Shown piece after piece: positions 27,669-33,002 of a stretch of 64,000 nt of DNA. The position numbers were made by a program, and so were the translations under genes. Numbering within the stretch: the first letter of the stretch is position 1; the number at the start of each line of letters is the position of its first letter. The stretch comes from Deltaproteobacteria bacterium (lineage in GTDB: Bacteria > JAGRBM01 > JAHCIT01). The stretch lies in assembly GCA_026129095.1 (NCBI GenBank), contig JAHCIT010000003.1, positions 62,001-126,000 on the forward strand, read 5' to 3'. The notes below the pieces were generated by a model. The model saw nothing but the letters and a program-made list of their open reading frames with translations, did no database searches and was not told the DNA's origin.

Positions 27669-28979
27669 ATGGGAATTTCTATCCGCTTGCCAGATGACGG
27701 CATCCCTTCGCTGCTGCCGGCAGCCGATTTCAGTTCGAAGGAACTGACGGTTGAGGACGGCTTCCTGTTGTCGCGCATTGATGGTGGAACAAACATGAAA
27801 GCCTTGCGCGCTCTCACGACCTGGCCAGGAGACCGTACGGACGAATCGGTCGCCAAGCTGATGGTGCTCCGGATGGTTCAGGTCCGTTTGAAGGATGGCG
27901 AGATTATCGCTCTTACTCCACGGGCGTTGAATGAGCTGAAAATCCGCATGGTTCGCGGGAAGACCGGCGCTACTGGTGGACTGGCGGCGAGCCTCGGCGG
28001 ATTGAAGGAGGCTGCGCCTTTCGTCCTGCCAGCCGGCACTGACACTGGAATGCTGTCCGTGGAAGTGGCTACCCATGTCATGCGTGCCATTGAGCGTGGG
28101 TCGCTTGGATACTGGTATGAAGTGCTGAGCATATCTCCAAGGGCAGATGTGGCGGCAATCAAAAAGGCCTATCGTGCAATTGCGGCTGAAATTCATCCCG
28201 ACAACTTTTTTGGCAAGGAGTTGGGGACCTGGGGGGAGCGACTGAACGATGCTTTCGATCTGCTCACCCGTGCCTACGACACACTGAGTGATCCGGCTGA
28301 ACGGGCCCGGTATAACCAGGAACTTGCGGACATGGACGCACCGGAACCGGAAGAGCCCGCCGAGCCAGAGGCCGAAGAGGTAAAGGTGACGGCTCAGGAG
28401 AAGCCCAAACCGGGCGGGACCATTCTGGACCAGATCCGGATGAAGGTTCAGAAGGCCCGCGATCTGGCCAGGACTGCCGAACAGCAAATGAATCAGGGGC
28501 ATTGGCAGGATGCCTTCAATGCGCTTCAGATGGCGGCGACATTCGATCCGTACAACCCTGATTACAAAAAAAAGGCGGATATGCTCCGCCCCAAGCTGAA
28601 CATCAAGCGGGCGAAGGAAATGTTCCAGGAAGCGGTCCATATGGCCCATAATCCAAAGATGGCGAAGGCAGCGCTCAAGCTGCTGGAGGAGGTCGTTGAT
28701 ATCGACCCGGCCCGGCCGGCCCACCGGTATGAATACGCCCGGCTACTTTTCCAGGAGCGGGAGAATACGATAGAGGGCGGGTACTTGGGGAAAGCCATGG
28801 ACCATGTGGAAGCAGCGCTGATCATGGAGCCCGAAAATCCGAAGTACCTGCTGCTTGCGGGGCAGATATGCAAGGCTATGGGGAACAAGAAGGCCGCTGC
28901 GGACTATCTCAAGAAAACCCTGAAAAAGGATAAGAACAACGAAACCGCCCGGCAGGAACTTGACAGCCTGAAAGACTGA
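27669..28979 (+). CDS. DnaJ-domain protein with N-terminal SRIDG module and TPRs
   Basis: A 436-residue cytosolic protein of the DnaJ/TPR type common in former Deltaproteobacteria. The N-terminal module has FLLSRIDGGTNMKAL and a following helical part (about 25-85), a motif seen in signalling proteins of that group. A J domain at about 147-215 has the intact HPD tripeptide (AEIHPDNFFG) needed to stimulate Hsp70 ATPase. An acidic, proline-rich linker and TPR-like helices (QMNQGHWQDAFNALQMAATFDP; YEYARLLFQERENT) fill the C-terminal half. No dnaK or grpE is nearby. A TATAAT at 27652-27657 precedes it without a good -35, so transcription from the arg genes is likely. Confidence 0.8.
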   Translation: MGISIRLPDDGIPSLLPAADFSSKELTVEDGFLLSRIDGGTNMKALRALTTWPGDRTDESVAKLMVLRMVQVRLKDGEIIALTPRALNELKIRMVRGKTGATGGLAASLGGLKEAAPFVLPAGTDTGMLSVEVATHVMRAIERGSLGYWYEVLSISPRADVAAIKKAYRAIAAEIHPDNFFGKELGTWGERLNDAFDLLTRAYDTLSDPAERARYNQELADMDAPEPEEPAEPEAEEVKVTAQEKPKPGGTILDQIRMKVQKARDLARTAEQQMNQGHWQDAFNALQMAATFDPYNPDYKKKADMLRPKLNIKRAKEMFQEAVHMAHNPKMAKAALKLLEEVVDIDPARPAHRYEYARLLFQERENTIEGGYLGKAMDHVEAALIMEPENPKYLLLAGQICKAMGNKKAAADYLKKTLKKDKNNETARQELDSLKD

Positions 28980-28988
28980 CGCACGATC

Positions 28989-29567
28989 ATGATTCCCGAG
29001 CACCTGCAGAAACGCTTCGCCGCCCTTCGCCAGGCCCTGAAGGATTCGGATGAACAGGTCCGTCAGTTGGCATCAAAATCGCTTGAGCAGGTGGAGGCGT
29101 TGTCTGACCTCGACCTGCTGGTTGAGAACTTCAAGAAGGGCGATAAGGTATCGCAGATCCGGGCGCTTTATGCGTTTGGCAAGATCCGCCATGACCGGTC
29201 GCTGACGGCGCTGGTATTCGCGCTCCGGATGGAGGACGAGGAAGTACGGACCGCTGCCATCCGGGCCATTGGAGAACAGCTCCATCCGCGGGCCATCGGT
29301 CCGTTACTGGAAGTGCTGCCAAACGAGACGCCAACCTGCCAGATCGCCATTCTGGAGATCCTCCCGAACTTCAAGGACCCGGAAATGATGAATGTGCTGA
29401 GAGGCATGCTCCGGAGCAAGAATGCCGATGTGGTGGAGGCTACTATACGGGCCAGCGGACGGATCGGGGACCGGGCCGTCGAGGATGCTCTTATCATTCT
29501 CCTGTCAAAGGGCCCCACGCGGCTCCGGCGGGCTGCGGCCGAAGTGCTGGGTGTGCTTTCGGTCTAG
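28989..29567 (+). CDS. HEAT-repeat protein
   Basis: This 192-residue protein is almost entirely HEAT/PBS-lyase-like repeats: ALVFALRMEDEEVRTAAIRA, PLLEVLPNETPTCQIAILEI and IRASGRIGDRAVEDALIILL show the alternating short helices. Such proteins are scaffolds for protein-protein contacts; no enzymatic residue is visible. It starts 9 bp after the DnaJ/TPR gene and is probably its operon partner. Its 3' end is only 10 bp from the convergent HD-GYP gene. Function unknown. Confidence 0.75.
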   Translation: MIPEHLQKRFAALRQALKDSDEQVRQLASKSLEQVEALSDLDLLVENFKKGDKVSQIRALYAFGKIRHDRSLTALVFALRMEDEEVRTAAIRAIGEQLHPRAIGPLLEVLPNETPTCQIAILEILPNFKDPEMMNVLRGMLRSKNADVVEATIRASGRIGDRAVEDALIILLSKGPTRLRRAAAEVLGVLSV

Positions 29568-29577
29568 CGGTTCCGCT

Positions 29578-30909
29578 TTATTTGAGATAGACAGTTACAT
29601 CGATATTCTTGAGCAGCGGGTCAACTGTCCCGATAATCCGGCGAGATGGCGCGCTGGCGGGCAATGGGCCGGCCAGATTCAGGTCAATAGGCTGGGGCAG
29701 CCGGTTACCGAATTCATCGATAATTATCTTGACCTTCGGTGGCGCATCAGGCGCTTCATTGGTTCCGGTAACTACGGCCAGTTCATTCGTCTCCAGCCGG
29801 ATGAGCGATCCGACAGGATACATGCCCAGCATGGTCACGAATCGCTCGAAATAGTGGGGATCAAGCTTGGTGCCAGCGAGCTTGTCCATAAGGACAAGGG
29901 CTTCGCGGGGCCCACTCTGGTTCTGATAAACCCGGAGCGTCGTGATCGCGTCATAGCAGTCGGCGATGGCGACAATGTGGCTGAAGGGACTGGGCTTGTT
30001 GCCTGACCCCAGATCCGGATAACCCTTCAGGTCGTACTGGACATGGTGTTCCAGTGCACAGCGGGCCGTGGTTTCCTGGAGTGAATTCATCTTCTGGATG
30101 ATCTCAAAGCTGTGAACTGAGTGTTCCTTCATCTTCTCCCATTCGGCCGGAGAAAGCCGGCCCGGCTTCTGGAGAATTTCCTTGGGCACCTTGATCTTGC
30201 CCAGATCGTGCAGGAGGCCGCCCAGCCCCACTGCGGAAAGGATCGGATCCTTCAGGTCGAGCGCATTGGCGAGCGCCAGCGACAGGATGGCCACATTCAC
30301 CGAATGGTTGAACAGGTAGTTGTCGTAGCTCTTGATCATTGACAGTCCGAGCAGGGCACTCGGATTGTCATCCAGGCAGCGGGTCATCGCGGAGACGATA
30401 CCCTTGGCCCGGTCCGGGCGGGGTATTTCACCCATTCGGAGTTCGTGGAACATGCTGCCGACATAACTGATGGCGTCGTTGTAGACTTTCGTGGAATCGG
30501 GCGACACCAGTTCGACGGTGATGTGCGAAATGCCGCGCATCACCAGTTCCCCGGACACCCAGTCGCCTTTCTGGTTGTTGGTTTCGGCGTCATCGAGGAT
30601 ATCCACCCAGTCGATGATTTCTTCTGCGGTTAGCCCTGGCTTGAACCGGATCACATTCACTTCGATTTTGAGGAGTTGCTCGAGCAGTTCCTGAAGGGCT
30701 GCTGGCAGGTGATAGAGGGCGAAGTCCTCACAGGTCAGGGTATCTTCTGCGACGGCAACAGTGATCTCTTGCCTCCGGTCGTGGAACGGTTTGAGAGCCA
30801 GGAGCAGGTTTGCCACTGCTTTCTTGAAGGCCGGGTGCTCCTTTGGATACAGGGCTTTCGCCTTGATGGCTCCGGCAACGAGATGAAGAATCTGTTCGTA
30901 GGGTTTCAC
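29578..30909 (-). CDS. HD-GYP domain phosphodiesterase-like protein
   Basis: HD-GYP proteins degrade c-di-GMP or related dinucleotides. In this 443-residue protein the C-terminal domain (about 190-345) has the HD pair in LLHDLGKIKVPKEIL, the second His block LEHHVQYDLKGYP with the GYP motif, and HIVAIADCYDAITT, so the metal-binding set appears complete. A ~150-residue N-terminal domain (LYPKEHPAF, FKPGLTAEEIIDWV, ISHITVELV) is related to that of the gene immediately upstream. The start overlaps that gene's stop by 4 bp. No transmembrane segment is seen. A GGDEF gene is encoded at 48251 and could supply the substrate. Confidence 0.88.
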   Translation of the reverse strand: MKPYEQILHLVAGAIKAKALYPKEHPAFKKAVANLLLALKPFHDRRQEITVAVAEDTLTCEDFALYHLPAALQELLEQLLKIEVNVIRFKPGLTAEEIIDWVDILDDAETNNQKGDWVSGELVMRGISHITVELVSPDSTKVYNDAISYVGSMFHELRMGEIPRPDRAKGIVSAMTRCLDDNPSALLGLSMIKSYDNYLFNHSVNVAILSLALANALDLKDPILSAVGLGGLLHDLGKIKVPKEILQKPGRLSPAEWEKMKEHSVHSFEIIQKMNSLQETTARCALEHHVQYDLKGYPDLGSGNKPSPFSHIVAIADCYDAITTLRVYQNQSGPREALVLMDKLAGTKLDPHYFERFVTMLGMYPVGSLIRLETNELAVVTGTNEAPDAPPKVKIIIDEFGNRLPQPIDLNLAGPLPASAPSRRIIGTVDPLLKNIDVTVYLK

Positions 30910-32579
30910 GAGCCGTTGCCCTCGTTTTTCCCAGGCGAAGTTCCCGACAGCCGGTGTTCAATATGGGAAATAACTCCCTCCAGTTGTTGGGCGAGAGTCG
31001 AATCGCGCAATGTCACCTCGCTGCGGAGGCGGGCGAGACTTTCGGGGCCTGCCGTGACCGAAAGGATCTTCAGGGCATCGCTCAGCGTGACCTTGTCGTA
31101 GAGGGGGCCGAACAGCTTCCGGGCTTTCAGGATGTCGATAAGGCCGTCAATAATGGGGCGCCCGCCGATGCGGGCAAGGGCGATATTCAGGGTCTTGCGA
31201 AAATCGACCGTCAGTTCGAACTCGTCGGCCTTCCTGAACAGGTCAAGAAGCAGCACTGAGCTGCGCGTCTCCCTGAGTGTCCCGAATGCCTCCAGCACCC
31301 GCCTGCGACTGGCAATGGGAGCATTACTGGTCAGGTACCGTCCGAGAACATTGATCGCGTCCATGTTCCGGATGGCCAGCAGGCCATCGATAGCCGCTTC
31401 GCTGACAGTTGGGTCGGCATGAAACACGAGCGGCTCAAGGGCGGTAACCCCTTCATCGGCTGTCAGTGCCCCAAGCGTTTGGGCCGCGAGCCGGGCAATG
31501 GGCGGCTGTGGTGTGCCATGCAGGAGCCCCAGCGCGAAATGTATCGCAGGTGGTCCCATGCGGGCCAACAACTGGGAGATCAATGTTTCGGTGTATGAAT
31601 TCAGTGGTGTTTTGAGCCGTTCAGCCACCACGTCCATGGTGGCCGGTCCGAAGAGTTCCAGTATCCGGAGCAGGGATTCGATTTCGCTTTCGGACTTGTC
31701 ATCGGTACAGAGTTCCGTCAGCAGTGCCCGGATCACCTGTGACGATCCGCTTTTCCGCATGGCCCGTATGGCGTACTTGCGGAACTCTATGTCCAGATCG
31801 GTATTGCGTGAATCCTGCTCGAAAACCTGGATGATCCTGAACAGCAAGGCCCAGCGTCGCCGCTTGAGAAGGCCGGCGGCCGTTTCGGCCAGTTTCAGTG
31901 CCGCCTGATAATAGGCATCCGCATCGGCTGTGCCGTTCAGGTCGCCGATCTGGTTCTCGACCAGTTCATTATCACGATCAATGCTGTCTTCGTCGCCGAC
32001 GATGGCACCGTCGATACCAACCGTGTCGATCACAGGTTCGGCAGCTGGGGTTTCGGGGTCCGGGGGGGGAGGCTCGGGTTCGGGCAGTTCAGGCACATCG
32101 GGTGGAGCCGGCTCGCCCCCCCGCTTGAGATACTCCAGATCGATGTCGTTAACGAAGACGTGAGTCAGGTGGGCTTCCTGCAGCAGCTTTTCAAGACCGC
32201 CCCGGAGATAAATATCCTCGGCTTCCATTGAGACAAGCCTGAGGAAGCGGAGCCACTCCTCCTGCGTGAGGCCATCCAGGAAATACAGCTTCTTGATGCG
32301 GCGCTGGAAAAGAAACTTGGCGAGCCCCTGAAGCAGTTCATTTTCGGGGTTTTGCAGGGTTTCGTTGTACCAGACCCCGGCGCGGGTGACACTGAAAACA
32401 AACTCGCCGCTGGCATGGGCGGCCTGCCGTATGGGGGTAAAAGTCTGCTGGATGATCTTCAGCAGGGAGGGGTGATTGGACGGATAGAATGCAACTGCGC
32501 GCAACCCCTTCTGAAGCTCCACCAGGAGCGCTTCAATCTCCCGGCCGCTGCCGCGGTCACCTTGCTGTGTTACTTCCAT
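30906..32579 (-). CDS. HEAT-repeat protein with HD-GYP-partner N-terminal domain
   Basis: A 557-residue protein that I do not recognise as a named family. The N-terminal ~145 residues (AFYPSNHPSLLKII, FLDGLTQEEWLRFL, THVFVNDIDLEYL) resemble those of the HD-GYP protein downstream. A Pro/Glu-rich linker follows at about 150-185. The C-terminal 350 residues are HEAT-like repeats (AAQTLGALTADEGVTALEPL, GLLAIRNMDAINVLGRYL). No catalytic motif is visible. The 4-bp overlap with the HD-GYP gene indicates coupled expression, and it is likely a scaffold or sensor partner. Confidence 0.72.
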   Translation of the reverse strand: MEVTQQGDRGSGREIEALLVELQKGLRAVAFYPSNHPSLLKIIQQTFTPIRQAAHASGEFVFSVTRAGVWYNETLQNPENELLQGLAKFLFQRRIKKLYFLDGLTQEEWLRFLRLVSMEAEDIYLRGGLEKLLQEAHLTHVFVNDIDLEYLKRGGEPAPPDVPELPEPEPPPPDPETPAAEPVIDTVGIDGAIVGDEDSIDRDNELVENQIGDLNGTADADAYYQAALKLAETAAGLLKRRRWALLFRIIQVFEQDSRNTDLDIEFRKYAIRAMRKSGSSQVIRALLTELCTDDKSESEIESLLRILELFGPATMDVVAERLKTPLNSYTETLISQLLARMGPPAIHFALGLLHGTPQPPIARLAAQTLGALTADEGVTALEPLVFHADPTVSEAAIDGLLAIRNMDAINVLGRYLTSNAPIASRRRVLEAFGTLRETRSSVLLLDLFRKADEFELTVDFRKTLNIALARIGGRPIIDGLIDILKARKLFGPLYDKVTLSDALKILSVTAGPESLARLRSEVTLRDSTLAQQLEGVISHIEHRLSGTSPGKNEGNGS

Positions 32580-32594
32580 ACGGCCGGCAACGGC

Positions 32595-33002
32595 TTACTT
32601 TCTGCTCGTCTCGACAAACCGGACCTGAAGTTCGTAGAGGAGGCCGTTCAGGAGCTGGCCTTCGTCTGCGGTCAGATTGCCCTGGGTCTTTTCCCGCAAC
32701 ATGTGCAGGATGTCGATGGTGTATCGGGCCAGCGGGAAGTTGGGTGTGGGAGCCTCATTATCTTCCGTCCGGATGAGTCCCAGATGAAACAGGGCCTGGG
32801 TATGGAGCGACAAGCAGAGTGTTCCAAAGGAAACTTCCGGGGCGTCTGATGGCTGTTCTTCCGGATGCCGCTCGAAGGTTTCCCCGCGGAGGCCGGATGC
32901 GGACTCAGCGGGCTCCTTGGAACCCTCGCTGCGGGCTTCGCCCTCGGGGGTAAAACGCCGCCGGTCCACGGTCTTGAAACCCGATTCAGATGAATCACTC
33001 AT
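32595..33002 (-). CDS. DUF1844 domain protein
   Basis: This small 135-residue protein ends with a DUF1844 domain (VSFGTLCLSLHTQALFHLGL through LNGLLYELQVRF, about 58-130); the N-terminal half is polar and probably disordered. The start at 33002 is chosen because a GGAGG-type site (plus-strand complement CCTCC at 33014-33018) lies upstream and an extension to 33074 would run over the promoter. DUF1844 proteins have no known function. It heads the minus-strand unit with the HEAT and HD-GYP genes, 15 bp before the former. Confidence 0.8.
   Translation of the reverse strand: MSDSSESGFKTVDRRRFTPEGEARSEGSKEPAESASGLRGETFERHPEEQPSDAPEVSFGTLCLSLHTQALFHLGLIRTEDNEAPTPNFPLARYTIDILHMLREKTQGNLTADEGQLLNGLLYELQVRFVETSRK

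Follow-up and report, generated by a model that had tools for sequence, protein, structure and literature searches.

Two overlapping genes in a 64,000-nucleotide stretch of a Deltaproteobacteria bacterium genome (GenBank assembly GCA_026129095.1, GTDB lineage JAGRBM01; JAHCIT01; contig JAHCIT010000003.1, positions 62,001 to 126,000; hereafter the window) encode a HEAT-repeat protein (P0002) and an HD-GYP protein (P0001) that, judging by their sequences, begin with the same small domain, which we call the Y-domain. Very distantly related bacteria carry the two genes too, in the same order, and this wide recurrence suggests a two-part signalling machine so far without a name. We give a probability of about 0.5 to the reading that the two genes specify a co-translated phosphodiesterase module of the cyclic di-GMP (c-di-GMP) type, in which paired Y-domains would join the enzyme to a HEAT scaffold.

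A domain shared by the two proteins

An earlier note, made from the window's DNA alone, had proposed that an N-terminal module was duplicated, one copy going to an HD-GYP enzyme and the other to a HEAT protein, and our comparisons confirm this. The window proteins gave 22% identity over 104 aa in a single blastp comparison (E = 0.001), and their Y-domains are identical at 25 of 141 positions. Family profiles built from 14 HD-side and 15 HEAT-side N-termini align with each other with a probability of 99.5 (hhalign; E 2.8e-23, 139 ungapped columns), the top probability among the controls (199 column-shuffled profiles and one column-reversed) being 3.8; seeds were picked by their YPxxHP motif, so that this motif is biased but the other columns are not. 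At loci outside profile building, each profile also found the opposite partner at E < 1e-3, the HEAT-side profile matching 52 of 60 HD-GYP partners and the HD-side profile 58 of 60 HEAT partners, while the HD-side profile was preferred by 58/60 held-out HD-side copies and the HEAT-side profile by 52/60 held-out HEAT-side copies. On this profile evidence, the two N-terminal regions are copies of one homologous domain, with homology of the HD-side N-terminus to the HEAT copy stopping near residue 135 in the hhalign comparison. Three of the four landmarks listed in the earlier note are found exactly in both window proteins (HEAT and HD-GYP, respectively: FYPSNHPSLLK and LYPKEHPAFKK, LQGLAKFL and LQELLEQL, FLDGLTQEE and FKPGLTAEE); the fourth, IxHIxV, holds for the HD-GYP protein (ISHITV) and not for the HEAT protein (LTHVFV).

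The domain goes unrecognised in family libraries: nothing in the N-terminal region of P0001 or P0002 rises above cut-off in Pfam, where a sub-threshold NEL match (E 0.27) is all that appears, and NCBIfam has no match there at E <= 0.1. At four other loci (L213, L216, L245 and L248) the HD-side N-terminus is a diverged Y-domain, with sequences such as YDxNN, YDIAN or SPDND at the place of the YPxxHP turn.

AlphaFold2 models of the two Y-domains (mean pLDDT, the predicted local distance difference test, 72.0 for the HD side from three input sequences and 86.8 for the HEAT side from four) agree in the predicted order of their elements, helix-helix-strand-helix-strand-helix-helix-strand, a comparison of order rather than a superposition, with the HD-side model weak around residues 51-80. 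The HEAT-side model contains two further short elements, a second strand and a helix. In both models YPxxHP forms the turn joining helices 1 and 2. The domain's most conserved positions lie in this motif (Y 94% on the HD side and 100% on the HEAT side, P 85% on both, H 92% and 85%); conservation beyond it is chiefly of hydrophobic residues or of G, T and E. Foldseek returned no PDB match at E <= 0.001 for either model, and the two profiles had no convincing sequence relatives in the PDB (best E 0.32 and 0.044). The top VIA-align hits were CheA P1-CheY/P2 for the HEAT-side model (Z 4.0, 90 residues, 4.0 A) and CRM1 for the HD-side model (Z 6.4, 94 residues, 3.2 A), with Z values that are common by chance. 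This lack of PDB matches is no proof of a new fold.

Linkage and inheritance of the pair

The HD-side and the HEAT-side profile each match 102 of 386 genomes sampled across bacteria (E <= 0.001), and the pair itself, whose co-occurrence the earlier note had proposed as a check, is present in many further genomes. The window's genome, a 3.67-Mb assembly, belongs to a phylum sampled by one further genome; both match P0001 at 1e-40 and both have the pair. In the nine-genome phylum of G021 the domain is found in 8 of 9 genomes at 1e-5, with pairs in G021, G306 and G168, and in that of G354 in 44 of 149 at the same threshold, with pairs in G354 and G084; pairs therefore occur in at least three phyla.

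Our linkage counts cover the stretches fetched around the listed profile matches, re-annotated with our own profiles. Starts of open reading frames (ORFs) were set mechanically, and long overlaps are thus probably over-called starts. Pairs were called automatically from an upstream partner only, at a spacing of -700 to 1500 bp. ORFs that combine a Y-domain with an HD-GYP domain number 79, comprising 73 in automatic pairs, five others and L275. For 75 of them (the 73 plus L234 and L275) a Y-domain ORF lies upstream on the same strand and, from the spacings, is the immediate neighbour in every case except L163, whose HEAT gene is split into two ORFs and whose spacing of 1048 is kept as counted; L234 was added by hand because an over-called start broke the overlap limit, and L275 came from a separate fetch. 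The remaining four are unreadable upstream, three at contig ends and one, L224, behind masked sequence: for L077 the contig stops 808 bp away, within a truncated ORF that has a HEAT match to P0002, L154 follows an ORF that is cut by the contig start and looks HEAT-like by eye at its C-terminus, and L160 lies 179 bp from a contig end.

The automatic pairs number 75, since they include L233 and L236, whose HD protein has no detectable Y-domain; they come from 59 genomes in 49 coded families, together with three named Deltaproteobacteria records, and two of them, L005 and L006, are near-identical. At E <= 0.001, Pfam finds HEAT_2 in 69 of the 75 upstream partners, and it finds HD_5 in 71 of the 75 downstream ones. 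The gene for the Y-protein, that is the scaffold, comes first in every pair, and of the Y-domain HD ORFs that the rule did not pair, none had a downstream partner in its place. Spacings are tight, the commonest being -4 (21/75); a spacing of -8 occurs in 9/75, and 51 of 75 fall within -20 to 20 bp. ORFs with an HD-GYP domain and no Y-domain served as controls. In the better set, none of seven had an upstream Y-domain ORF, and six of the seven have more than 5 kb upstream. Twenty more from short loci had no adjoining Y-domain ORF except L034 (a Y-HD ORF on the opposite strand), a weak control because a 1.5 kb flank could miss a partner's N-terminus. A second, diverged pair lies on contig 20 of the window's own genome (L086), where the beginning of the HEAT gene shares 4 bp with an 870-aa ORF (L086:13946-16558); elsewhere, L178:2357-8771 holds two tandem pairs, Y-protein and Y-HD-GYP twice over.

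The association is one-sided. Within the fetched stretches a readable Y-HD-GYP ORF is never found without an upstream Y partner, whereas Y-HEAT proteins do occur without the enzyme, as would be expected if the HEAT protein were the platform and the enzyme its client. Y-domain ORFs without an adjoining HD-GYP gene number 48, and HEAT_2 is present in 31 of the 42 that were scanned, six of which end 354 bp or less from the fetched end, so that a partner may lie beyond; the six outside the Pfam scan are fragments or explained (L078, two of L155, L171, L174 and L234). Among the unpaired ORFs are two large GGDEF-AAA-Y-domain-HEAT proteins (L217:1183-5880 and L253:2488-6102). Another Y-domain protein, L181:3727-5286, has an N-terminal DUF4388 and its Y-domain at residues 256-385.

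The history of the two copies was followed in a tree of 96 Y-domains (145 columns) from those 48 of the 73 pairs whose two copies each reach 50 bits or more, seeds included; L075, whose HD protein has a masked stretch (X), is outside profile A1 and was kept in A4 and the tree. HEAT-side and HD-side copies are separated by two label changes, against about 32 in shuffles. Distances within one side track those within the other (Mantel r 0.667, a value reached in 0 of 2000 shuffles), in a statistic that ignores shared species history and therefore demonstrates correlated inheritance but not contact; in 33 of 48 pairs the two sides agree on the nearest neighbour. These relationships suggest an ancient duplication whose copies have been inherited together, and the event appears, from the sequences compared, to be ancient rather than confined to the window locus.

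A proposed signalling module and its alternatives

Based on this analysis we can outline how the pair may work. The two genes would encode subunits of one signalling module, each starting with a small alpha/beta Y-domain and translated in tandem, scaffold first. The two Y-domains would pair as a hetero-oligomer and so tether the enzyme to its scaffold while the two are made by coupled translation. The HD-GYP phosphodiesterase would then sit on a HEAT protein that would control, gate or place it, the HEAT solenoid would bind a further target, and the enzyme would lower the local level of a cyclic dinucleotide, most likely c-di-GMP. Domains that arose by duplication and remain linked across phyla, together with an enzyme apparently dependent on its scaffold, would fit a hetero-oligomer that may derive from a former homo-oligomer. 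What the sequences show is a shared domain, a fixed order, linkage, correlated inheritance and metal ligands that are intact in most members; direct contact between the Y-domains, scaffolding by the HEAT protein, the substrate and the local action are what we infer.

Those ligands were compared with PmGH (PDB 4MCW) by motif position rather than by superposition, and the PmGH residues named here are those given in PMC4159591. PmGH binds its metals through H189, H221, D222, H250, H276, H277 and D305, plus E185 (PMC4159591), and the window protein keeps seven of these eight ligands, as H202, H234, D235, H263, H288, H289 and D317. Its GYP motif is intact (G296-Y297-P298), and its D196, K238, D320 and R326 correspond to PmGH D183, K225, D308 and R314. 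It does not fit the PmGH-like trinuclear E/D-T-G subgroup, having Y198-L-F at the E185 position; Y or F at that position marks an HD-GYP subfamily predicted to be binuclear (PMC4159591), and by Y198 the window protein fits this Y/F subgroup. All seven ligands (HHDHHHD) are present in 59 of the 75 HD partners, the window's included, two others being cut short. The window's genome has 12 GGDEF, 13 PilZ and 3 HD_5 matches; c-di-GMP is therefore the likely currency, and the c-di-GMP-type label of the earlier note fits the conserved ligands and these genes, the substrate itself staying a prediction. In six partners (L085, L164, L168, L198, L211 and L219) the first ligand histidine is absent from the alignment, and these may be non-catalytic.

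Several findings weigh against the proposed module. Some Y-domain proteins have no HD partner, and linkage with correlated distances, taken from a Mantel statistic without a species-history control, also fits co-regulation without contact. Two of the 60 held-out HD-side copies (L233 and L236) match neither profile, and eight of the 60 on the HEAT side show no preference for their own. The HEAT copy of L177 and the HD copy of L223 stand on the wrong side of the tree, and the branch dividing the two sets is weakly supported (34/39), its bootstrap unsettled. As for the enzyme, the position of PmGH K317 is Q329 in the window protein; in the alignment 14 of 73 readable HD partners have a substituted metal ligand, and catalysis is therefore perhaps not the function in every pair; and P0001 matches a phosphodiesterase specific for 3'3'-cyclic GMP-AMP (3'3'-cGAMP; 2.5e-22) about as well as it matches PmGH (1.3e-22).

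The alternative that survives best, though we think it unlikely, is that the Y-domain serves as an input that senses a ligand or redox state and that the two proteins, co-regulated and forming no complex, answer the same signal in parallel. In HD-GYP proteins a sensor usually sits at the N-terminal place, which is the one the Y-domain occupies, and the domain's other contexts (GGDEF-AAA-Y-HEAT in L217 and L253, DUF4388-Y in L181), like its presence in HEAT proteins that have no HD gene beside them, are what one might expect of an input module. Co-sensing, however, needs neither the near-absolute adjacency nor the correlated inheritance that we observe, and the conservation of hydrophobic residues or G, T and E, with YPxxHP placed at the modelled turn between helices 1 and 2, suggests a structural role for the motif.

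Our expectation for a second alternative is lower still: that the HD-GYP domain acts on 3'3'-cGAMP or another nucleotide, or binds one non-catalytically, which would make the module a receptor for nucleotides and not an enzyme that hydrolyses c-di-GMP. The match to the 3'3'-cGAMP phosphodiesterase, the ligands lost in several partners and Y198 at the E185 position, which places the protein in the Y/F subfamily (PMC4159591), are in its favour; the seven retained metal ligands with D196, K238, D320 and R326, and the plentiful GGDEF and PilZ genes of the genome, speak against it. A recent tandem duplication in this lineage, with N-termini merely still alike, would account for adjacent genes that share a domain, but we consider it extremely improbable, since the window copies are identical at only those 25 positions, copies group by gene and not by genome (of the 96 copies from 48 pairs, two depart from this), and in none of the 48 tree pairs are the two copies sisters.

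The window locus and known systems

The features of the locus are collected in Table 1. The 4-bp gene overlap described in the earlier note is borne out, GTGA being common to both ORFs, and translational coupling of the two genes through it is probable. Pfam identifies the HD-GYP and the HEAT regions, with HD_5 at 91.7 bits in the HD-GYP protein (cut-off 27.2) and HEAT_2 at 40.0 bits in the HEAT protein (cut-off 27.7).

Table 1. Features of the Y-HEAT/Y-HD-GYP locus, in window coordinates
Feature	Coordinates	Strand	Content or basis
Y-HEAT gene (557 aa), first gene of the pair	30906..32579	-	Y-domain, Pro/acid-rich linker, HEAT repeats
Y-domain of the HEAT protein, residues 6-154	32118..32564	-	profile match 2e-49 (itself a profile seed)
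Pro/Glu/Asp-rich linker, residues 155-215, approximate borders	31935..32117	-	translation inspected by eye
Top HEAT_2 stretch, residues 387-453	31221..31421	-	Pfam
Y-HD-GYP gene (443 aa, GTG start), second gene of the pair	29578..30909	-	Y-domain, HD-GYP domain, C-terminal tail
Y-domain and helical connector of the HD-GYP protein, residues 3-165	30415..30903	-	profile match 2e-55 (itself a profile seed)
HD-GYP domain, residues 191-352, GYP at 296-298	29854..30339	-	HD_5 5.8e-26
GTGA stop/start overlap, 4 bp	30906-30909	-	sequence
Small HEAT gene P0004 (192 aa), convergent with the pair, optional neighbour	28989..29567	+	
DUF1844 gene, 84.2 bits, ends 15 bp before the HEAT gene	32595-33002	-	Pfam
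DnaJ-domain and TPR protein beside the small HEAT gene	27669-28979	+	Pfam

By direct check, homologues of P0004 of similar size adjoin 7 of 75 pairs, the window counted. A conserved third gene had seemed indicated by a cluster of 11 around this small HEAT gene, which shrinks to those homologues; its remaining members are either different HEAT ORFs or unrelated ones, and include half of L163's HEAT gene. The window's DUF1844 gene did not cluster with neighbours of any other pair, the DnaJ/TPR neighbour is retained in G001, and a cluster of 16 two-component regulators has its members close to 12 pairs, at scattered positions.

Mobile or defensive origins were likewise rejected. For anti-phage defence PADLOC gave only weak matches on the HD region (Cas10, Cas3, Cas3g), generic HEAT-ARM matches and a borderline OloA match on P0004 (0.0097), PHROGs gave one weak HD match for a phage origin, and in a tblastn search with P0001 none of 541 plasmid records covered 80% of the protein, the best 15 of the 541 matching residues 139-437 only.

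Among known systems, the HD-GYP phosphodiesterases (HD_5, represented by PmGH) have in common with the window protein the HD_5 match, seven of eight metal ligands and the GYP motif. They differ in that E185 is replaced by Y198 and K317 by Q329 in the window protein, and also in that its N-terminus is, by Pfam, not REC, GAF or PAS and is shared by a HEAT partner. RpfG is an HD-GYP response regulator with a CheY-like receiver, and the idea of an HD-GYP output under another protein's control is common to both; no receiver domain was found by Pfam in P0001 or among the families listed for the 75 HD partners. In DUF3391-HD-GYP proteins an uncharacterised domain likewise precedes HD-GYP, as in Y-HD-GYP, and a DUF3391 match occurs in one of the 75 HD partners (3.2e-4) and not in the window protein. 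Compared with bacterial HEAT_2 and PBS-lyase HEAT proteins the HEAT region of Y-HEAT looks ordinary; what sets the protein apart is the Y-domain and linker ahead of it and the Y-HD-GYP gene behind. We found no paper on the pair or the domain in the open-access PMC library searched, which leaves most subscription papers and preprints outside, and in the retrieved text of the PMC papers containing both 'HEAT repeat' and 'HD-GYP' the HEAT mention is unrelated (XopN effector, phage RNA polymerase insert).

HD-GYP enzymes are normally understood through their own sensor domains. Here, in every readable case, the genes for a widespread group of them follow the gene for a second protein, in most cases a HEAT scaffold, that carries the same N-terminal domain, one that is found in 102 of 386 sampled genomes and yet is unrecognised by Pfam in the window proteins. 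A wider reading, which we hold only tentatively, is that these pairs form an unnamed class of two-subunit cyclic-dinucleotide machines, obligate hetero-complexes of a HEAT scaffold with its own HD-GYP phosphodiesterase, and that the same cassette can be fused to a GGDEF cyclase, so that one module might confine both the making and the breaking of c-di-GMP in many little-known lineages. If the two proteins bind each other, the pair would offer a general explanation, open to testing, of how c-di-GMP hydrolysis is confined to a target in the bacteria that have it.

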